Shown here in pieces: positions 17,092 to 61,764 of a stretch of DNA of 64,000 bases. The first letter of the stretch is position 1, and every line of letters begins with the position of its first letter. The position numbers and the translations under genes are program-made. This DNA is from Devosia sp. XK-2 (GTDB lineage Bacteria; Pseudomonadota; Alphaproteobacteria; Rhizobiales; Devosiaceae), in the NCBI RefSeq assembly GCF_037113415.1, contig NZ_CP146608.1, positions 3,505,001 to 3,569,000 on the forward strand. Reading direction: 5' to 3'. The notes under the pieces were generated by a model, which did not search any database, was not told the DNA's origin, and worked only from the letters and a program-made list of their open reading frames with translations.

Positions 17092-17663
17092 TAGGCCTCG
17101 AATCTGCCGATAATTTCGACTTCGTCATTGGCGCAATCGAAAGTCCCCGCCTTGTCAGCCGCTTGCCGCGCCAGCTCATTGGCATTTGCATTGGCGCGCG
17201 CATCCACATAGGCGATATGGCAGCTATTGCCGTCCTGGATCTGGCTGACCACCAGCACCTGTCCATAATTCTCGCCGGTTTCAGGGTGAGCCGTGTGATA
17301 GCGCACAATGGTGGCAATCGGGAACCAGCGGCCAAGCGCATTGGACAACCGCCATTCGAGCTTGCTTCCCAGCGAATTGAAGGGTGGCAGGGTCTGAAAG
17401 CCCACGCTGTTCTCATCCGCATCAAAGCCATAGCTGAGCGAAAATCTGAGATCACCTTCCTCGACCAGCAGGGGATAGCCCCTATAGCCGGGACAGGCCC
17501 AGCTGGCGCCGAAATCGTCGGCCTCGAGGATCAGACACTGGTTGAGATCAAGATCGGTATAGGCGCTGGTAAAGCCCGATTGCGCTTGCGCCGGGGTCGC
17601 CGCCAACGCCAAAACGCAAAGGGCAGGAGGCGCAACAAGATTGCGGATGACAGGCGCACGCAT
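17088..17663 (-). CDS. Secreted protein of unknown function
   Basis: I do not recognise the family. From the ATG at 17663 the protein begins with basic residues (MRAPVIRN), a hydrophobic stretch and the ATPAQAQ signal-peptidase-I type site, so it is predicted to be periplasmic. The mature part of about 165 residues contains four cysteines (NQCLI, WACPG, NSCHI, FDCAN), which could form two disulphides. It also has many acidic and aromatic residues. The segment ACPGYRGYPLLVEEGDLRFSL resembles other alphaproteobacterial secreted proteins annotated as hypothetical. An in-frame ATG eight codons upstream is possible. It is convergent with the TerB gene and divergent from the uspA gene. Confidence 0.7.
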   Translation of the reverse strand: MRAPVIRNLVAPPALCVLALAATPAQAQSGFTSAYTDLDLNQCLILEADDFGASWACPGYRGYPLLVEEGDLRFSLSYGFDADENSVGFQTLPPFNSLGSKLEWRLSNALGRWFPIATIVRYHTAHPETGENYGQVLVVSQIQDGNSCHIAYVDARANANANELARQAADKAGTFDCANDEVEIIGRFEAY

Positions 17664-17695
17664 TGAGCTAATCTCCCTGGCCGACAAGCGTTTTC

Positions 17696-17709
17696 ATGAT
17701 CGAAATCAA
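17696..17709 (+). promoter_or_regulatory. FNR/FixK-type box upstream of the universal stress gene
   Basis: ATGAT-CGAA-ATCAA matches nine of ten positions of the TTGAT-N4-ATCAA consensus bound by FNR/FixK/FnrL proteins. Its centre is about 54 bp upstream of the ATG. A -10-like TAGTAT at 17734-17739 would place the transcription start near 17745, close to 41.5 bp from the box centre, the class II activator geometry. The sequence match is direct; oxygen control is inferred. Confidence 0.5.
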
Positions 17710-17756
17710 ATCGTCACCATCATGGCGCCGACATAGTATGAGGGCAAGGAGACACG

Positions 17757-18209
17757 ATGATGTTCAAGAACCTGCTGATCGCCACGGACGGATCCGAGCT
17801 TGGCAATAAGGCCCTCGACATCGCGCTCGAGCTGGCCCGGCTCCACGGCGCGAGCCTGATCATTCTGACCGCGACCGATCCGGTTGCCACGGGCATCGGC
17901 TCTGGTGGCTTCGGCACCATTGATGCCGGCCCCATCCTGGCGCGACTGGAAGAAGCCTATGCCAGCGAGGCCGCCAATCTGCTCGCTGCGGCGCGCCACA
18001 AGGCCCAGGCCGCGGGCATTTCCGCGCAAACCCTGCACCTGCCGCGCCATCGCCCCGCCGACGGCATTCTGGAAACCGCGGCCCAGAAAGGCACCGATCT
18101 CATCGTCATGGGCTCGCATGGCCGGCGCGGCCTGGCGCGCCTATTGCTGGGCAGCCAGGCCACCGAAGTCCTGGCCCGTGCCACCATTCCAGTGCTGATC
18201 GTCAAATAA
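17757..18209 (+). CDS. Universal stress protein (UspA family)
   Basis: Single-domain universal stress protein of 150 residues with the expected start FKNLLIATDGSELGNKAL. It also carries the ATP-binding signature GSHGRRGLARLLLGSQATEVL (a G-x2-G-x9-G-S/T pattern), ending in the conserved strand IPVLIVK. Such proteins accumulate under starvation, low oxygen or other stress and may bind ATP. Two start codons are adjacent (17757 and 17760). The AAGGAG at 17746 is better spaced for the second, so the first Met may be absent. An FNR-type box upstream suggests induction when oxygen is low. The gene stands alone. Confidence 0.92.
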   Translation: MMFKNLLIATDGSELGNKALDIALELARLHGASLIILTATDPVATGIGSGGFGTIDAGPILARLEEAYASEAANLLAAARHKAQAAGISAQTLHLPRHRPADGILETAAQKGTDLIVMGSHGRRGLARLLLGSQATEVLARATIPVLIVK

Positions 18210-18308
18210 AGCAGGGCTGCTGCGGCCGTTTGTGCCTTGCCTTTGCCAGCCATTGCGGGCAGAACCGCCGCACTCCTGGACCCCCTCCATGAACGGCGAC
18301 TGAACCAA

Positions 18309-18839
18309 ATGAATATCGACGCGATCCCCACCGGCAAGAACCCGCCCGACGAGCTCAACGTCATCATCGAAGTGCCGCTTGGCGGCGAACCGATCAAGTA
18401 TGAAATCGACAAGGATTCGGGCGCGCTGTTCGTCGACCGCTTCCTCTATACGCCCATGCGCTATCCGGGCAATTACGGCTTCGTGCCCCATACCCTGTGC
18501 GGCGATGGCGATCCGCTCGACGTGATCGTGATGAATTCGCGCCCGCTGGTGCCCGGCGCCGTGGTGCGCAGCCGCCCGGTCGGCGTGCTGTTCATGGAAG
18601 ACGATGGCGGCCAGGACGAAAAGATCATCGCCGTGCCCGTCTCCAAGCTCACGCGCATGTATGACAATATCCAGGATATTGGCGACATGCCCGAAATCCA
18701 GCTCGAGCGCGTCAAGCACTTCTTCACCCATTACAAGGACCTCGAGCCCGGCAAATGGGCCCGCATCGACCGCATTGGCGGCATCGACGAGGCCCGCAAG
18801 GTGATCCTTGATTCGATCGCATTGGCCAAGAAGGGCTAA
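18309..18839 (+). CDS. ppa: Inorganic pyrophosphatase, soluble family I
   Basis: Hydrolyses pyrophosphate to phosphate in the cytosol, driving biosynthetic reactions forward. The 176-residue length is typical of bacterial family I enzymes. Active-site residues appear in [20 protein letters not shown], in the signature DGDPLDVIV (metal-binding aspartates), and in [11 protein letters not shown]-like and [13 protein letters not shown] segments. I chose [11 protein letters not shown] at 18309; the in-frame ATG at 18237 would add 24 unrelated residues. A strong terminator follows the gene. A membrane H+-pumping pyrophosphatase (hppA) is encoded 5 kb away, so PPi can be either hydrolysed or used for proton pumping. 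Confidence 0.96.
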
Positions 18840-18873
18840 GACCGAGATCGAAGGCTTTTTCGATCCAATTGCG

Positions 18874-18921
18874 GCCCTCGGCGTTGTAGGAATGGATTTT
18901 CCGCAATGCCGAGGGCTTTTT
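18874..18921 (+). terminator. Rho-independent terminator after ppa
   Basis: GCCCTCGGC (18874-18882) pairs perfectly with GCCGAGGGC (18908-18916), followed by TTTTT. The loop of 25 bases is long for a terminator. The 3' arm contains GAGGG, which is also the only candidate ribosome site for the next gene starting at 18923, so the element may act on both genes. Confidence 0.75.
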
Positions 18922-18922
18922 C

Positions 18923-20302
18923 ATGAAATCTGTTGCCATCCTGACCGCTGCTCTTCTGGCTGCACCCGCTCTGGCACAGGAGGCCGCCATGCCCTCGGAT
19001 GGCGAAATCGCCCAGATTCTTTCGGACCGTATCGGTCGTGATCAGGCCAATGTCGGCATTGCCGTGGCCGTGATCGAAAACGGGGAAACCCGCTTCGTCT
19101 CGCACGGCACACTCACGCTCGACGGCGCAGAGCCGATTACCGAACACACCATTTTCGAGGCCGGCTCAATCACCAAGGTCTTTACCAATCTGGCTTTGGC
19201 GCAATTGGTCAATGACCGCAAAATCGAGCTCGACGCACCTATAATCAACTATCTGCCGGAGGGCTTTGTGCTGCCAGATGCACCGGGCCGCGCCATCACC
19301 GCCTTCGATCTGGCCACCCACAGCGCTTCCCTCTCCGGCCTGCCTCCAGACCTGTTGGCTGGCGAGACCGACAATCCCTATTCCGGCTATGGCGTGGAAG
19401 GTCTGCAAGCATGGCTGGCCGACTACACCCTGCCCCGGCCCGTCGGCGAAAGCTTTGAATACAACAATGCCGGGACCACGCTGCTTGGTCTTGCCATAGC
19501 GCATGTGAGTGGCACTGACTTTAGCAATGTGATCAGTGAAAACATCCTTGCGCCGCTCGGCATGACTGAAACCAGCCTCGAATTGACGGGCACGGCCCCG
19601 CCCGAGGCGCTGGCCTCTGGTCACAACGGCGCGCGAGAACCGACCTCGAACTGGGATTTCGATGCCTTTGCCCCAGCCGGCGCGCTGCTTACCTCCAGCA
19701 GCGATCTCATCAAGTTCATAGGCGCCGCCAGCGGCCAGATCCCGTCCGAGCTCGAACCGGCCATCAACACCATGCTGGCGCGCACCAGGCCGGTCGAAGA
19801 AGGCACTTCAATCGGGCTGGGCTGGTTCATCACCACGACAGGACAGGGAGAGATCGTCTGGCACAATGGCATGACCGGCGGCTATTCGAGCTTTGCGGGA
19901 TTCGACCGCACGAGCGGCAATGGCGTTGTTGTGCTCACCAATATGGCGGCCCAATTGGGCGTCAACGACATTGGTATGCATATCCTCAATCCGGCCATTC
20001 CATTAAACGAACAGCCCAGGCTGCGCACCAGTGTTGAAATCGATCCCGCGCTCTTCGATGATTATGTCGGTGAATATGTGCTGGCGCCCGGCGCGGTGAT
20101 TACCGTCACCACGCAAGACGGAAAACTCTTCGCCCAGTTGACGGGTCAGGACGCTTTCGAGATTTTCCCGGAAAGCGAAACCCAGTTTTTCTACAAGGTA
20201 ACGGACGCGCAGATCACCTTTGACGTCAATAATGGCGACGTCAAATCCCTGATCCTGCACCAGAACGGACAGAATATACCGGCGCTGAAACTGGTGGAGT
20301 GA
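18923..20302 (+). CDS. Serine hydrolase, class C beta-lactamase/penicillin-binding fold
   Basis: 459-residue exported protein with a signal peptide (MKSVAILTAALLAAPALAQ). The three active-site motifs of the beta-lactamase superfamily are present: SITK (Ser-x-x-Lys) in EAGSITKVFTNLALAQ, YNN in FEYNNAGTTLL, and HNG in WHNGMTGGYSSF. The C-terminal ~100 residues form a separate beta-rich domain (VGEYVLAPGAVITVTTQDGK), as in DD-peptidase/esterase-like members. The family includes AmpC, EstB esterases and D-amino-acid peptidases, so substrate cannot be assigned. The start codon follows immediately on the ppa terminator stem; its translation may depend on that structure. Confidence 0.88.
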   Translation: MKSVAILTAALLAAPALAQEAAMPSDGEIAQILSDRIGRDQANVGIAVAVIENGETRFVSHGTLTLDGAEPITEHTIFEAGSITKVFTNLALAQLVNDRKIELDAPIINYLPEGFVLPDAPGRAITAFDLATHSASLSGLPPDLLAGETDNPYSGYGVEGLQAWLADYTLPRPVGESFEYNNAGTTLLGLAIAHVSGTDFSNVISENILAPLGMTETSLELTGTAPPEALASGHNGAREPTSNWDFDAFAPAGALLTSSSDLIKFIGAASGQIPSELEPAINTMLARTRPVEEGTSIGLGWFITTTGQGEIVWHNGMTGGYSSFAGFDRTSGNGVVVLTNMAAQLGVNDIGMHILNPAIPLNEQPRLRTSVEIDPALFDDYVGEYVLAPGAVITVTTQDGKLFAQLTGQDAFEIFPESETQFFYKVTDAQITFDVNNGDVKSLILHQNGQNIPALKLVE

Positions 20303-20402
20303 ACACTTCTGGGGTCACTCAATGATCGGTCCTCGCTCAGCTCTTTGAGGAAACATTGGCCACCCCCACATTTGCGTAAACCAATATCCGGCGACAACGC
20401 TG

Positions 20403-20423
20403 CCCTCAGGCTCGACCCGAGGG
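20403..20423. repeat. Single imperfect copy of the CTCGGG palindromic repeat
   Basis: CCCTCAGGCTCGACCCGAGGG is a degenerate copy of the palindrome found at 22320, 22660, 38619, 38670 and 61671. It lies in a 238-bp gap between the serine hydrolase and the DUF3445 gene, in which I see no gene. It is a solitary copy. Confidence 0.6.
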
Positions 20424-20540
20424 CGCACGCGCTTGCAGACTCACACAAGCAGCTCAATGCCAGCGGCAAAAGAGCAAGTGGGGCCACCTGTCAGGTCGGG
20501 GCCCATTGCCAAGGCGCTATGAGCGCTTTCATATGCCGCC

Positions 20541-21452
20541 ATGACGCCCCTGCCCTATGACCTTTCCGCCCGCCTGTTCCGGATCGGCACCAGGCCGCTC
20601 GACCCGGCAGATTGGCTCGAACCCGACGCCGCCATGGCCGCACAATTGGCGGAAAAGGCAAAGCTCCTTAAAGAACGAAAAGACGCTGTCTTTGAGGAAT
20701 TGGCAGGCAGCCGCAAGGCGCAGGCCGAACTGCTGGCCCTGCTGGCCGACCATCTTCCAAGGCATTTTCCGGAACTATGGCGCCATAGCAGCACCGGAAT
20801 CGAAGTCATTCCGACCAATGAGACGATTGATCTCACAGGTCCTGGAAGCCCGCTGCTGATCGCTACAAAACTGGTGCAGGATGACCTGCTTATTCTCCAG
20901 CGCGACGAAACAGGCTGGCGCCTGAGCGCGGCAAGCCTCTGCTTTCCCTCCTCCTGGGTGCTGAGCGAGAAAATGGGGAAGGTGCTGGCCGACATCCATG
21001 CGCCTGTTCCAGGCTTCGGCCCCGGCACGCGGCAGGCCGAGGTGATGGCGCGCATGTTCGACGCCATGCGGGTCGAAACGCCGATGATCCGCTGGAACTT
21101 TTCGCTCTATGGCGATGACCGTTTGTTTCATCCCGATATGTCGGGACCACACGATAGTCGCTTCGGGGCGGGCGAGCGGGCAGACCCGGTCTACCTGAGG
21201 GTCGAGCGGCAGACCCTGCGCAAATTGCCCGAAACCGGAGCGATTGCCTTCACGATCCGCATTTCCGTGCACCCGTTGGAGCGGCTGGAAGCGCATGAAG
21301 ATGCGACGCAGATTGCGGCTTCCCTCATCGACCAGATCGAAGCGCTCACGCCCGAACAGCTCGATTACAAGGGGCTGACGCGGGAGAAGAACCGGGTAGT
21401 GACGAGGCTGACAGAACTGGCCGGTCGCGGATCCGCTTCCCTTCTCCCCTGA
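20541..21452 (+). CDS. DUF3445 protein, haem-dependent oxidative N-demethylase-like
   Basis: 303 residues. DUF3445 members include the alpha subunit of HODM, a haem enzyme that oxidatively demethylates dimethylamine with a PAS-like haem-binding fold. Supporting segments are LVQDDLLILQRDETGWRL, ASLCFPSSWVLSEKMGK, IHAPVPGFGPGT, and RWNFSLYGDDRLFHPD. YLRVERQTLRKLPETGAIAF and FTIRISVHPLE follow near the C-terminus. No reductase or ferredoxin partner genes flank it, so this could be a stand-alone member whose substrate is unknown. It is translated from the first ATG after a 238-bp gap. The gene ends 3' in an inverted pair of intergenic repeats. Confidence 0.82.
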   Translation: MTPLPYDLSARLFRIGTRPLDPADWLEPDAAMAAQLAEKAKLLKERKDAVFEELAGSRKAQAELLALLADHLPRHFPELWRHSSTGIEVIPTNETIDLTGPGSPLLIATKLVQDDLLILQRDETGWRLSAASLCFPSSWVLSEKMGKVLADIHAPVPGFGPGTRQAEVMARMFDAMRVETPMIRWNFSLYGDDRLFHPDMSGPHDSRFGAGERADPVYLRVERQTLRKLPETGAIAFTIRISVHPLERLEAHEDATQIAASLIDQIEALTPEQLDYKGLTREKNRVVTRLTELAGRGSASLLP

Positions 21453-21581: not shown

Positions 21582-22139
21582 CTACGCCGCCCGCTTCCGA
21601 TAGACCTGCACCACATTGCCCTTTGAGGTGACATCGCAACGGACCAGTTCCAGCCGCGTGGTCGGATCGCCCGGCTCGAACAGATGCCGGCCCTCACCTG
21701 CAACCACCGGATGGGTGATGAGCGAAAGCTCGTCCATCAACCCGGCAAAAAGCAATTGCCGCACCAGCGAAATGCCGCCCATGGCCGCAATCTCGCCGCC
21801 CGGCTGGGACTTCAGACCGCGAACAAAGTCCACCACATCGCCCTCGATAAGGGACGAATTGGACCATTGCGCCATGTCACCCGTTTTCAGCGTGTTCGAG
21901 GCCACATATTTGGGCACGTCATTGATGAACTGGGCGAAATCCAGGTCCTGCTCGGCATTGGGCCAATAACCCGCCCATTCCGCCCAGCCGACCCGGCCCA
22001 TGAGCACGGTGTCGACCTGGTTCTGCACCCCGGTCAGCATTTCCCCGAGCTCATCGTCGAAACTGTCGAACTGGAACTTGAACGGGTCCTCGACCACCCC
22101 ATCGACGGAATGAAAAAGACCGGCTGTCACTTTACGCAT
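21582..22139 (-). CDS. Dihydrofolate reductase-like (RibD C-terminal domain) protein
   Basis: 185-residue stand-alone member of the dihydrofolate reductase/RibD-C superfamily, NADPH-binding oxidoreductases of mostly unknown substrate. The pattern is standard. MRKVTAGLFHSVDGVVEDP holds the first strand, and DTVLMGRVGWAEWAGYWP contains the GRxTxE-like segment. KYVASNTLKTGDMAQW and EIAAMGGISLVRQLLFAGL follow (GG nucleotide loop), ending LSLITHPVVAGEGRHLF. It is not a biosynthetic FolA and not a bifunctional RibD. It is the only gene on its strand here, between two repeat-rich gaps. Confidence 0.88.
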   Translation of the reverse strand: MRKVTAGLFHSVDGVVEDPFKFQFDSFDDELGEMLTGVQNQVDTVLMGRVGWAEWAGYWPNAEQDLDFAQFINDVPKYVASNTLKTGDMAQWSNSSLIEGDVVDFVRGLKSQPGGEIAAMGGISLVRQLLFAGLMDELSLITHPVVAGEGRHLFEPGDPTTRLELVRCDVTSKGNVVQVYRKRAA

Positions 22140-22300
22140 TTTTTACGATTTCCCTCTGGTTCCGGACGGCACTATGCCGCCCGTTTCGCTTAGGCGACGA
22201 GGGAGGGGCGAGGGGTTCGACATTTTTTGTTTTGCGGTTTGCGACACGACGCCGGCTGAGTTGGACCTGCCGTGGCCCAACCCACTTTCCACCCGACCAA

Positions 22301-22352
22301 CCCCACCTACCGCGCGTCACCCTCGGGCCTGACCCGAGGGTTCTGCACTTCA
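22301..22352. repeat. Left inverted repeat framing the GIY-YIG gene
   Basis: Contains the palindrome CCCTCGGGCCTGACCCGAGGG at 22320-22340, flanked outside by CCCCACC...CGTCA and inside by TTCTGCACTTCA. The inner end runs into the stop codon of the GIY-YIG gene (22350-22352). The right-hand copy at 22648-22697 is its reverse complement with few changes, including the outer and inner flanks. Confidence 0.85.
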
Positions 22353-22637
22353 CTTGGCGATGTCATCCCAGAGATCCCGCCACTCGGGATTATGTTCCTC
22401 GATCAGCGCGTGCTTCCATCGGCTGTACCAACGCTTGAGTGAGGTCTCGCGTTGAATGGCCATGCCTATCTCGCCAAACTGCTCGAAATAGACGAGCTGC
22501 TTGATATTGTAGGTCTTGGTGTATCCGGCAATCAGCCCTTCGCGATGCTCATAAACACGACGCAATAGGTTATTGGTGACACCAATATAGGTGCGCCCAC
22601 GCCGCATATCGGCAAGGATGTAAACAAAGCCGCCCAT
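22350..22637 (-). CDS. GIY-YIG nuclease-family protein
   Basis: 95-residue single-domain GIY-YIG protein. VYI (residues 5-7) and YIG (17-19) form the signature strands. The LLRRVYEHREG segment supplies the conserved Arg and His, E64 in IQRETSLKRW is the catalytic metal-binding glutamate, and NPEWRDL closes the domain. Related small proteins are annotated as endonuclease or excinuclease-like, with unknown targets. The gene is framed almost exactly by inverted copies of a dispersed palindrome, with the stop codon inside the left copy and the start 11 bp from the right copy. This suggests that gene and repeats form a unit. The ribosome site is weak. Confidence 0.9.
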   Translation of the reverse strand: MGGFVYILADMRRGRTYIGVTNNLLRRVYEHREGLIAGYTKTYNIKQLVYFEQFGEIGMAIQRETSLKRWYSRWKHALIEEHNPEWRDLWDDIAK

Positions 22638-22647
22638 GCCGGCATCT

Positions 22648-22697
22648 TGAAGTACAGACCCCTCGGGTCAAGCCCGAGGGTGACGGCCGGTGGGGGT
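22648..22697. repeat. Right inverted repeat framing the GIY-YIG gene
   Basis: Contains CCCTCGGGTCAAGCCCGAGGG at 22660-22680 with inner flank TGAAGTACAGA and outer flank TGACGGCCGGTGGGGG. Read as reverse complement it matches the left copy over roughly 45-50 bp with a few substitutions and a short indel. This includes the parts outside the palindrome, so the two are arms of one structure and not chance neighbours. Confidence 0.85.
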
Positions 22698-22736: not shown

Positions 22737-23579
22737 TCAGTAACCAAGGTCCAATTCGTCCCCGAAAGCGTCGTGCAGTTGGAGGCTAGACATATACTTT
22801 TCGCGCATGCCAGCGTAAATCTGACCATAAATTTGCTTCATACAGCTAATTGAGCGTTCTAGATATTCCGCATCGATCACCGCCTGTTCTTCGACTGCAC
22901 CGCGTGCCTTTGCGCCGACCTTACCTAGGTATATCTCGTTAATTTTGCCGTCGCCGTGAACATGCAGGTCACGGGTGGCTTTAATCTCCACAAAATTCTC
23001 CCAAGTGCCGTTATCGAAGGAGAAGCCCCAGATACTCCGAGTGTATTTTTCGTATTTGGCAGGCGTCGCATACATCGCTTCTCTCGTTCTTTCTGCCGCT
23101 TTTCGCGATATGGCTTTTTTCAAGCTTCCCAGTTGTATGAGATCGCGAAGATCAACTTGAACGGTCTTTTCCCCATCATCTGGCGTGCCTGCCGGAGAAA
23201 TAAGCACCTTCTGAGGAAACGCGCGCATCACCCTGGCCAAATTTCGAGAAATGTATTCCTCCGTCAGCGAAACGGCGAAAACCAAAGATTGTATGTACTC
23301 TCTCCTTCGAATTCTTTCATCCATAAGTAGAAGTAAATCTTCACGCCTTCTGGAAATTCTAGCAGTCTTTCCCTTAGAGGTTGGCGCCGTCAGGTGCACC
23401 CGCTCTGACTTTGTCTTAGAAACCTCCTTTCTCAGTTCGCTCAATCCACGAACTGACATAACAGCCTCGATGTACAGATCGTTTATTTTTCGAACTTGTT
23501 TTTGATGATCTCGCCGAAGAAGATCGTAGTTTAGCTGACCTTTGAATGTATTGGCTTTATTCACTCGATCGGATCCCAT
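22737..23579 (-). CDS. Orphan protein with a HEPN-like RNase motif
   Basis: 280 residues from the ATG at 23579; an in-frame ATG at 23630 would lie upstream of the probable hppA terminator hairpin (23587-23607). It is mostly helical and charged, with a basic, coiled N-terminal half (residues 20-115). I do not recognise the whole family. Near the C-terminus the segment FVEIKATRDLHVHGDG, then KINEIYLGKVG, closely resembles the R-x4-H motif and following DGxxNxxYL of RiboL-PSP/MAE-type HEPN RNases. R203 and H208 would be catalytic. Base composition is visibly more AT-rich than the neighbours, suggesting transfer. No toxin-antitoxin partner is obvious; the next gene downstream is the GIY-YIG cassette. 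Confidence 0.6.
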   Translation of the reverse strand: MGSDRVNKANTFKGQLNYDLLRRDHQKQVRKINDLYIEAVMSVRGLSELRKEVSKTKSERVHLTAPTSKGKTARISRRREDLLLLMDERIRRREYIQSLVFAVSLTEEYISRNLARVMRAFPQKVLISPAGTPDDGEKTVQVDLRDLIQLGSLKKAISRKAAERTREAMYATPAKYEKYTRSIWGFSFDNGTWENFVEIKATRDLHVHGDGKINEIYLGKVGAKARGAVEEQAVIDAEYLERSISCMKQIYGQIYAGMREKYMSSLQLHDAFGDELDLGY

Positions 23580-23635
23580 GAAATCGCCCGGAGTTTCGCC
23601 CCGGGCCTCTTCACGTCGTAGTTGAGGCAAATGCC

Positions 23636-25750
23636 TTACATCCCCATGCGCGCCAGCACCGCGAGCAGCAACAGGGCCACGATATTGGTGATCTTGATCA
23701 TCGGGTTGACGGCGGGACCCGCCGTGTCCTTGTAGGGGTCGCCGACGGTGTCGCCGGTGACCGAGGCCTTGTGCGCGTCGCTGCCCTTGTGGTGGGTGAC
23801 GCCATGGCTATCGGTAAAACCGTCCTCAAAGCTCTTTTTGGCATTGTCCCAGGCGCCGCCGCCCGCCGTCATCGAGATGGCGACGAAAAGGCCGGTGACG
23901 ATGACGCCCATGAGCATGGCGCCAAGCGAGGAGAAGGCATTGGCCTGGCCGGCAATCCAGAGGATGACGAGATAGACCACGATGGGTGAGAGCACCGGCA
24001 ACAGGCTCGGCACGATCATTTCCTTGATCGCGGCCTTGGTGAGCATATCGACGGCGCGGCCATAATCGGGCTTGTCGGTGCCGGCCATAATGCCCGGCTT
24101 TTCCTTGAATTGACGCCTGACTTCCACCACCACCGACTGGGCGGCACGGCCCACGGCCGTCATCGACATGCCGCCAAAGAGGAATGGCAGCAGCCCACCG
24201 AAGAGGAGGCCCACCACCACGTAAGGATTGGCGAGGTCGAAGCTGACGGTGAGGTCGGTGAAATAGTGCTTCAAATCCTCGGTATAGGCCGCGAACAGCA
24301 CCAGCGCCCCGAGGCCCGCCGAACCAATGGCATAGCCCTTGGTGACGGCCTTGGTTGTATTGCCGACCGCATCGAGCGCATCGGTATTGTGCCGGACGCT
24401 GTCATCAAGCCCTGCCATTTCGGCAATGCCGCCAGCATTATCCGTGACCGGACCGAAGGCGTCGAGCGCCACGATGATACCGGCCAGGGCCAGCATGGTG
24501 GCAACGGCCACCGCAATGCCGAAGAGCCCGGCCAGCGAATAGGTGACGATAATGCCGGCAATGATGGTGATGGCGGGAAGCGCCGTCGATTCCAGCGACA
24601 CGGCCAGGCCCTGGATGACATTGGTGCCGTGACCCGTCACCGAGGCTTCGGCAATCGAGTTCACCGGGCGCCGATTGGTGCCGGTGTAATATTCGGTGAT
24701 GACGATGATGAGCCCGGTAATGACCAGACCCACCACGCCGCACCAGAACAGCGACCAGGGGGTGAAGGTTTTCGAGGCGGTTTCAATGGCGACGTTCATA
24801 TCGCCGAACATCAGCCAGAGCACCGGCAGGAGCGCCACGAGCGAGAGCACACCGGTGGCGATGACGCCCTTATAGAGCGCCCCCATAATGTTGTTGTCCG
24901 AGCCGAGCTTGACGAAATAGGTGCCGATGATCGAGGTGACGACACAGGCCCCGCCAATGGCGAGCGGCAGCACCATGCCGATGAGCTTGAACGCATCGGG
25001 TAGGATGATGGCGGCCAGCACCATGGTGGCGACAATGGTCACCACATAGGTTTCAAACAGATCCGCCGCCATGCCGGCACAGTCCCCGACATTGTCGCCC
25101 ACATTGTCGGCGATTGTTGCGGGATTGCGCGGATCGTCCTCAGGAATGCCGGCCTCGACCTTGCCCACCATATCGCCGCCCACATCGGCACCCTTGGTGA
25201 AGATGCCACCGCCAAGACGGGCGAAGATGGAAATCAGCGAGGCACCGAAGCTCAGAGCAACCAGGGAATCGATGACGGTGCGGCTGGTGGGTTCAAACCC
25301 CATGCCGGTCAACACGATGAAATAGAGCGTGACGCCGAGCAGGCCCAGCCCCGCCACCAGCATGCCGGTGACCGCGCCCGACTTGAAGGCCAGGTCCAGC
25401 CCCTTGCCCAGCGAGCCGATTGCCGCCTGGGCTACCCGCACATTGGCGCGGACCGACACATTCATGCCGATGAAACCGGCTGCGCCCGAGAGCACCGCGC
25501 CGACGAGAAAGCCGATGGCTGCATAGATGCCCAGAAGAAAATAGGCGGCGACGAGGATGACCACGCCCACAATGGCGATGGTGGTATATTGCCGCTTGAG
25601 ATAGGCCGATGCGCCCTCCCGCACGGCGGCCGAGATTTCCTGCATGCGCGCCGACCCCGCATCGGCCTTGAGCAGGCCCTGGGTGGTCACCACGCCATAG
25701 ACGATAGAGAGGCCACCGCACACAACGATCAGCCAAAGTGCCAGATCCAT
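23636..25750 (-). CDS. hppA: Membrane-bound proton-translocating pyrophosphatase
   Basis: Couples pyrophosphate hydrolysis to proton pumping across the membrane. 704 residues with about 16 transmembrane helices. Substrate-binding loops are intact: [38 protein letters not shown] and [12 protein letters not shown], with C-terminal [20 protein letters not shown]. The motif [10 protein letters not shown] carries Lys at the position where K+-dependent enzymes have Ala (GNTTAA), so this should be a K+-independent H+ pump. The ribosome site GAGGGA upstream of the ATG can pair with CCCTC in a hairpin at 25758-25781. It is followed downstream by the HEPN-like gene. Confidence 0.97.
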
Positions 25751-27560: not shown

Positions 27561-27662
27561 CCCCACCCTCATTCCCTCCCCATCAAGGGGAGGGAGGCGC
27601 AGGCATCGGCCTATCGGTTCCATCGTCTCCCTCCCCTTGTGGGGAGGGACCAAGGGTGGGGG
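27561..27662. repeat. Inverted pair of CTCCCC-type intergenic palindromes
   Basis: The left copy (27561-27597) runs from CCCCACCCTC to CCTCCCCATCAAGGGGAGG. The right copy (27627-27662) contains CTCCCCTTGTGGGGAG and ends GGGTGGGGG. The right copy read in reverse complement matches the left, so they form an inverted doublet with about 30 bp between. It occupies the gap between typA and the DedA gene. Confidence 0.75.
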
Positions 27663-38617: not shown

Positions 38618-38691
38618 GCCCTCGGACTTGATCCGAGGGCCACTCGGATCTGGTGCGAACCTTGAAAGGTCCTCGGGTCAGGCCCGAGGAC
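38618..38691. repeat. Inverted doublet of the CTCGGG palindromic repeat
   Basis: Two copies of the palindrome framing the GIY-YIG gene: CCCTCGGACTTGATCCGAGGG at 38619-38639 and TCCTCGGGTCAGGCCCGAGGA at 38670-38690. The second is in opposite orientation, as judged from the asymmetric central bases. A 30-bp spacer lies between them. This resembles REPIN-like doublets. It sits in the gap between rlmN and the first IalB gene. Confidence 0.75.
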
Positions 38692-61640: not shown

Positions 61641-61670
61641 CGCGTTTCAAGCTAAAGCAACGGGTCTACC

Positions 61671-61691
61671 CCTCGGGGCTTTGACCCGAGG
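61671..61691. repeat. Single CTCGGG-type palindromic repeat
   Basis: CCTCGGGGCTTTGACCCGAGG, a slightly lengthened copy of the palindrome that frames the GIY-YIG gene. It lies in the 124-bp gap between the diguanylate cyclase and a hypothetical gene, where I see no other feature. Confidence 0.7.
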
Positions 61692-61764
61692 ATTGAACCC
61701 GCAATGAAACACGGGCTCGAAGCAATGTCAGCGTTTCAACGAAACGGCGCAACGCTCTTGGCCC

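Follow-up and report, generated by a model that had tools for sequence, protein, structure and literature searches.

The hairpins closest to those considered here are the CGTC REPs (Di Nocera, De Gregorio and Rocco 2013, PMC3733652). According to that study, they consist of a CGTC or TGTC tag, a stem of 8-9 bp, which in the different families almost invariably begins with AT, a loop of 4-5 nt and a CCA tail, and they form doublets with the tags on the outside. They include dRS3 of Neisseria and RPE-4 and RPE-6 of Rickettsia conorii, predominate in the Alphaproteobacteria, and are also found in Neisseria, in Rickettsia and in four other phyla; the hosts named include Azospirillum lipoferum, Novosphingobium aromaticivorans, Sinorhizobium meliloti and the Neisseriae. 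The study concludes that CGTC REPs apparently have no dedicated transposase and leaves the question open. The other closely similar system is the RAYT/REPtron, whose enzyme cuts REP DNA in single-stranded form at its tag.

We analysed a 64,000-nucleotide stretch of the genome of Devosia sp. XK-2 (3.80 Mb, single contig), in which a short GIY-YIG nuclease gene is framed by inverted hairpins. This whole stretch is here called the window, and its relevant features are the following.

20402..20424, single imperfect hairpin with a related core sequence
21582..22139, minus strand, RibD C-terminal-domain protein (Pfam PF01872), left neighbour outside the element, adjoining the site in element-free relatives
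22300..22697, putative whole element of about 0.4 kb with approximate ends, based on BLAST homology with the second genomic copy and with the orthologous copy in genome G068
22300..22352, left terminal inverted repeat on the 3' side of the gene, its inner part overlapping the stop codon; parts: outer ACCCCACCTACCG, CGTCA tag 22315-22319, hairpin 22319-22341
22350..22637, minus strand, gene of the 95-aa GIY-YIG nuclease (PF01541, 51.6 bits), the coordinates including the stop codon
22648..22697, right terminal inverted repeat on the 5' side of the gene; parts: hairpin 22659-22681, TGACG tag 22681-22685, outer GCCGGTGGGG
22737-23630, minus strand, 297-aa ORF adjoining the element, toward the H+-pyrophosphatase gene
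23636..25750, minus strand, H+-pyrophosphatase (Pfam PF03030), right neighbour outside the element, adjoining the site in relatives
38618..38691, gene-less inverted doublet of subtype B with a GGCCA-like inner flank, hairpins 38618-38640 and 38669-38691
61669..61693, single imperfect hairpin with a related core sequence

A sequence-only reading of the window had described the GIY-YIG gene as bracketed by inverted arms of about 50 bp, and this holds: the arms at 22306-22352 and 22648-22694 are 47 nt each, 87% complementary and spaced by 295 nt. As that reading also had it, the left arm contains the stop codon (22350-22352) and the right arm lies near the start codon, at a distance of 10 bp. Both arms contain the hairpin CCCTCGGG-5 nt-CCCGAGGG with CGTCA on the outer side, the left one (22319-22341) with a 9-bp stem and the right one (22660-22680) with an 8-bp stem, each with a 5-nt loop. 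The stems start with AC or CC, and there is no CCA tail at either hairpin. Judged by their sequence, the hairpins of the element are CGTC-tagged REPs or close variants of these. When the best inverted repeat between the 150-bp flanks was scored for all 373 window ORFs with a length of 60 aa or more, the majority of which are not real genes, the GIY-YIG gene obtained a score of 58 and the next best ORF 27. With a cut-off of 36, a single one of 3000 random window positions was retained, namely at the place of the GIY-YIG gene itself. At gathering scores, Rfam matched nothing in the window apart from a tRNA, and none of the PADLOC models matched. The adjoining 297-aa ORF has no Pfam or NCBIfam match, and no DNA match to it was found beside the orthologous element in G068.

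The residues Y6, Y17, R27, H31, E64 and N83 of the nuclease are 99-100% conserved among 88 homologues, and we take the Tyr, Tyr, Arg, Glu and Asn of the GIY-YIG fold to be the catalytic residues. The gene is under purifying selection, with a median dN/dS of 0.13 for 154 pairs from 22 related genes. The structure model of the nuclease (pLDDT of 94.5) has UPF0213 (1zg2) as its top Foldseek match, followed by the catalytic domains of SLX1, UvrC and I-TevI, and the top matches with VIA-align are GIY-YIG folds with Z at most 7.2, so that the structure searches support the fold only. SLX1 acts together with SLX4, and by analogy its cutting of branched DNA would suit an enzyme that must recognise a hairpin or a cruciform. 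GIY-YIG enzymes act by hydrolysis, and neither strand joining nor covalent protein-DNA chemistry is known for them. At E 1e-5, a search of the phage collection gave no match to the nuclease, and its PHROG match is weak. The RAYT-type transposase PF01797 was not found in the window genome and is present in 3 of the 75 Devosia genomes.

One further homologue was detected in the genome, at 1899111-1899395, which is 83% identical, located at a different site and flanked by inverted hairpins at 1899069-1899087 and 1899404-1899422. The homology of the two genomic copies corresponds to window positions 22302-22697 and then stops abruptly, 17 and 16 bp beyond the hairpins. The consensus of 46 ends of close relatives is CACCCACCG-NN-CGTCA-hairpin, also written CACCCACCGNNCGTCA-hairpin, in which the CGTCA tag is conserved at 91-93% per base and conservation reaches background about 18-19 bp beyond the hairpin. 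In recent gene-less families (genomes G032 and G073), an extra 70-90 bp or so is common on each side beyond the hairpins, which makes the extent of the moving unit uncertain.

Some copies have lost the gene. At one locus of the window genome (L019, approximately 2233257-2233402), both element ends are joined with 9 bp between them and retain the sequence around the gene start and the last codons, and in a doublet at another locus of this genome (L289) both ends are retained, with unrelated sequence as the spacer. In G018, a full element lies next to an internally deleted one, two tandem elements, one with an in-frame TGA, are present in G023, and G032 contains a deleted form in five copies, one of which is cut at the right end. 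Three copies of another deleted form, with 98.8-99.3% identity, are found in G073, where two stretches contain N and an assembly effect is possible. In S. meliloti, a deleted form is located beside a full element, and no clear repeat of the CGTC-hairpin kind was seen in a 50-kb stretch of pSymB. The tags are outside in the window unit and in the deletion derivatives (L019, G018, G032 and G073). On these alignments, some of the gene-less doublets arose by deletion from the element that bears the gene, and to that extent the earlier suggestion that the doublets are non-autonomous forms is borne out; the doublet in the window itself is of another subtype. In addition, single hairpins tagged at both ends, GTCA-stem-loop-stem-TGAC, were observed at two loci in Devosia (L079 and L109) and one in Sinorhizobium K101 (L253, where one of the two tags is degenerate); they look like doublets that have lost their central part.

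Repeat numbers in the genome were obtained by pattern searches, and the exact pattern CCTCGGGN{4,6}CCCGAGG occurs 33 times, compared with no occurrence of the reversed control. By their flanks, these 33 hairpins represent at least three subtypes, with about 9 belonging to the subtype of the gene and about 24 to others. The claim that the palindrome occurs four more times in the window can thus be kept in part: four further hairpins exist, but they are not all one repeat. A nuclease of the subtype of the window's doublet was found in relatives and was not detected in the window genome. Five of the 33 CCTCGGG hairpins (L007, L010, L011, L012 and L297) have a distinct flank, of the type gctCCTCGGGCYTCRACCCGAGGatcgg, and may be terminators or belong to a separate family.

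Matches to the nuclease are carried by 55 of the 75 Devosia genomes, with 1-5 in each, and 110 of the 111 Devosia loci gathered could be used for a comparison of the 150 bp upstream with the 150 bp downstream. A score of at least 36 was reached at 76 of the 110 loci, and at 66 of 87 if only full-length genes are included, compared with 1 of 427 shifted positions along those loci; the loci are related by descent, and the shifted controls often land in coding DNA, where repeats are rarer. In other taxa, the same score was reached at 51 of 103 usable loci and at none of 387 shifted positions, again for loci related by descent; 80 of these loci came from named records of many phyla, being the best 80 of at least 547 relatives and with a few Devosia recurring among them, and 29 came from a Pseudomonadota sample. 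The expectation that homologues are flanked by inverted palindromes was hence confirmed both within and outside the genus. Scores were below 36 at 34 of the 110 Devosia loci and at 52 of the 103 other loci, several of which have a single hairpin or a degenerate pair. Mispaired flanks, with the upstream part of one gene and the downstream part of another, scored at least 36 in 41 of 327 cases, which is not a clean null because lineages share repeats.

TGAC is present in both outward-read arms at 42 of the 51 flanked loci from other taxa and at 46 of the 76 flanked Devosia loci. Read from the gene outward, the hairpins of other taxa are mostly of the form TGGAT-stem-loop-stem-ATGACG, with the CCA tail inward and the CGTC tag outward, and a CCA-type tail was identified at 34 of the 51 flanked loci outside Devosia. 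In the plasmid collection, 8 of 12 named records, taken from 33 with a match, scored at least 36, and the framed examples include A. lipoferum, N. aromaticivorans, S. meliloti and Neisseria gonorrhoeae. At four loci, including L240 in A. lipoferum (the others being L085, L102 and L106), the gene is placed between two complete doublets rather than inside one. A plasmid of Planktothrix agardhii (p1, 17359-20613; L247) contains a cyanobacterial GIY-YIG gene among GTCATTCTGAGTGAAACGAAGAATCTC-type repeats, with an MmeI-type restriction gene on one side, the DISARM gene drmA on the other and an inverted-repeat score of 28. A distant, UPF0213-like GIY-YIG group in Devosia (L117, L119 and L121-L128), with 37-48% identity to the window protein, was considered as an unflanked control and dropped, as 7 of its 10 loci score at least 36 by flank alignment. 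These seven are framed by inverted repeats that are longer and have a long loop, CCTCATGGTGAGGTGC ... GCCTCGAACCACGAGG, and the hairpin pairing may extend to UPF0213-like proteins.

The window element is common to G068 and G067 and is missing next to this pair of neighbouring genes in G032, G054, G070, G073, G015, G033 and G019, where the replacement content varies. In A. lipoferum, the gene, with hairpin doublets on both sides, is located in a 617-bp interval between sufB and sufC, while the sufB-sufC gap is 55-129 bp in A. ramasamyi, A. oryzae, Azospirillum sp. B510 and A. thermophilum. The empty sites anticipated by the sequence-only reading therefore exist as element-free orthologous sites, but without a readable junction: no exact empty-site junction or target duplication was found in Azospirillum, Sinorhizobium, Sphingobium or Devosia because the intergenic DNA differs, whereas presence and absence as such are clear. 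At the site orthologous to that of the window, the GIY-YIG element is replaced by a DUF559 gene in G073 (L271, PF04480) and in G032 (L268, where the copy looks frame-broken). The DUF559 gene is bracketed by inverted copies of another palindrome, of the CCTCCCCC-ATCAA-GGGGGAGG type, and a similar palindrome forms an inverted doublet at 27573-27649 of the window. A DUF559 gene also lies under the sufB-sufC match in Sphingomonas parapaucimobilis, and DUF559 may be a further repeat-associated nuclease.

The hairpins differ between nuclease lineages, even within one genome. A Mantel test on 74 Devosia loci with flanking repeats gave an r of 0.67 between the identity of the proteins and the similarity of the repeats, compared with a maximum of 0.14 in 2000 permutations. 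Pairs at homologous sites were removed for a comparison by identity class, in which repeats were called similar if their similarity exceeded one half. Similar repeats were present in 97% of 99 pairs with at least 75% protein identity, in 77% of 116 pairs at 65-75%, in 49% of 222 at 55-65%, in 15% of 901 at 45-55%, in 7% of 914 at 35-45% and in 0% of 389 pairs below 35%. The pairing at non-homologous sites implies that the repeat follows the nuclease to new places, and the window's own lineage has 19 members in this comparison, at no fewer than 11 different sites.

In Devosia, the number of repeats of a type depends on the nuclease that matches it, in line with what had been proposed from the window. 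In 68 Devosia genomes that are at least 90% complete, with nucleases classified by the nearest exemplar protein, exemplars picked after the flanks were known and statistics that ignore phylogeny, the median number of A/B repeats was 48 in the 30 genomes with an A/B nuclease and 2.5 in the 38 without (p = 3e-8), that of C repeats was 80 in 17 genomes with the matching nuclease and 1 in 51 without (p = 4e-8), and that of D repeats was 55 in 11 genomes and 2 in 57 (p = 4e-4). For each of the three repeat types, the matching class gave the lowest p of six nuclease classes. Mismatched pairs are partly enriched too, for example repeat A/B with nuclease C (p = 1e-3), and the median number of A/B repeats with nuclease D is 81, above the 48 with the matching class. 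In the 17 nuclease-free Devosia genomes of at least 90% completeness, up to 16 A/B, 67 D and 96 C repeats remain, which means either that repeats persist without the gene or that the search misses diverged nucleases. An earlier count with a looser flank expression, which had pooled CCCCGGG with CCTCGGG (medians of 34.5, 14 and 2 in 36, 19 and 20 genomes, p = 6e-6), has been superseded.

The presence of the gene is also associated with repeats in a sample of 398 Pseudomonadota genomes, for which the pattern covers ATYCC-type CGTC REPs only and has one match in the window genome. With phylogeny ignored and at a strict cut-off (E 1e-9) that was set after the search, 42 of the 65 genomes that contain five or more CGTC-type hairpins had a homologue, compared with 60 of the 333 remaining genomes (odds ratio 8.3). 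At a loose cut-off of E 1e-3, and likewise ignoring phylogeny, these counts rose to 48 and 122, respectively (odds ratio 4.9). Thus, 23 of the 65 REP-rich genomes are without a strict match and 17 without even a loose one. In one well-sampled family, one or more hairpins were found in 17 of 18 gene carriers and in 18 of 56 others.

The frame, the co-variation of nuclease and repeat, the many unrelated sites, the deleted derivatives, the presence and absence at orthologous sites and the matched repeat numbers are established as far as genome comparison goes. We consider it likely that the 0.4-kb unit is an autonomous mobile element and that its nuclease mobilises the CGTC-tagged REP hairpins in a RAYT-like manner with other chemistry. 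This supports the idea, put forward in the sequence-only reading, of a GIY-YIG enzyme that spreads the repeat, with binding, cleavage and movement as the steps that we infer. The GIY-YIG nuclease would be the only protein of the element, the ends would be CGTC-tagged REP hairpins with the tag outward, and nuclease lineage and hairpin would form a matched pair. As the matched nuclease and hairpin change together, the simplest cause would be that the nuclease acts on its own hairpin. It would also act in trans on gene-less copies and thereby spread the unit with the gene as well as the REPs that are dispersed as doublets and singles. The nuclease would recognise the hairpin as a single strand or a cruciform and cut beside the CGTCA tag, and host replication or repair would then insert the released or copied unit elsewhere; since GIY-YIG enzymes are not known to join strands, the host would have to complete the move. 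The hairpin strand could be excised or copied and then repaired in at a new site, or the unit could spread by a homing-like cut and repair. Somewhat less firmly, we favour a broader view in which a large and ancient class of autonomous elements moves by way of DNA hairpins with no enzyme other than a GIY-YIG nuclease of 95-100 residues and with no transposase, and in which these nucleases gave rise to the dispersed CGTC-tagged palindromes of many bacterial phyla.

Homing in the strict sense would mean that the nuclease cuts at or near a REP or at empty allelic sites and that recombinational repair through hairpin or flank homology copies the element, with spread to unrelated places as a rare accident. 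It has in its favour that phage and intron GIY-YIG enzymes are homing endonucleases, that there is a PHROG match, albeit weak, and that tandem and neighbouring copies exist and recent families share longer flanks. It remains an unlikely account, as the many non-homologous sites have only the hairpin and about 18 bp in common (46 ends), gene-less derivatives occur in several copies, and it is the repeats that match and not the flanks. The nuclease gene could instead be a passenger in REP doublets that are moved by a RAYT, another transposase or replication slippage and that enclosed it many times. REPs are intergenic and could enclose genes, and some repeats are abundant without a detected nuclease. 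Yet the matching of gene and repeat is lineage-specific at independent sites, copy numbers match, a RAYT-type transposase is limited to the three genomes mentioned above and no other of the 373 window ORFs is framed in this way, which makes passenger status quite improbable.

An even smaller chance is given to a host function, with the hairpins as terminators or mRNA stabilisers, or with the nuclease as a housekeeping enzyme that processes hairpins, and with the pair co-inherited and immobile. Such a function is difficult to reconcile with the patchy distribution of the gene among the Devosia genomes, its variable number of matches, its several unrelated sites, its absence at orthologous sites and the existence of gene-less copies, even though the hairpins are placed at the ends of the gene, purifying selection acts on the gene and, according to PMC3733652, REPs are in general located mostly downstream of coding regions.

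If the unit is indeed a mobile element driven by its nuclease, GIY-YIG proteins would be the missing mobiliser of the CGTC REPs, and a symbiosis between a repeat population and an enzyme, as in RAYT/REPIN systems, would have evolved at least twice with unrelated chemistry. Convergent with RAYT/REPIN, the nucleases would then represent a new class of enzymes in the mobile DNA of bacteria, and many proteins annotated as "GIY-YIG nuclease family protein" or "excinuclease ABC subunit C" would be enzymes of mobile elements. With a gene framed by CGTC REPs, matched lineages and gene-less offspring, a single protein and a single oligonucleotide are enough to test the question of the mobiliser. Full-text searches of an open-access library of published papers listed none that connects GIY-YIG with REPs, and the word GIY is absent from the accessible parts of PMC3733652, PMC6006769, PMC12306157 and PMC5082802.

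Compared with known systems, the element resembles insertion sequences and transposons in its terminal inverted repeats and its copies at unrelated sites. It shares the catalytic fold and, putatively, a selfish spread by DNA cutting with the free-standing GIY-YIG homing endonucleases (I-TevI and the phage seg type), but differs from these in its terminal hairpins, many unrelated sites and gene-less derivatives, and the sequence similarity is weak. UPF0213 (1zg2, 1ywl) and SLX1, of which the latter cuts branched DNA, provide the nearest solved folds, but are not described as mobile. The similarity to the CGTC REPs includes the unpaired CGTC tag, the sizes of stem and loop and the tag-outside doublets at GIY-YIG loci, and the same kind of hairpin frames the gene in host taxa named in PMC3733652. 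The Devosia hairpin differs in that it begins with C-G pairs rather than AT, and a candidate enzyme is framed here, whereas that study reports no dedicated transposase. Like the RAYT/REPtron/REPIN systems, the element consists of one small enzyme gene framed by tag-outward inverted REPs, with lineage-specific REPs, gene-less doublets and few enzyme copies per genome. The enzyme is however an IS200-type tyrosine transposase (PF01797) in the REPtron and contains PF01541 only in the element, the tag is GTAG in the former and CGTCA in the latter, and cutting at the tag by the GIY-YIG enzyme is a presumed counterpart of the cleavage by RAYT. By analogy, the element would thus work like a REPtron, although it departs from it in two defining features, the enzyme family and the tag.
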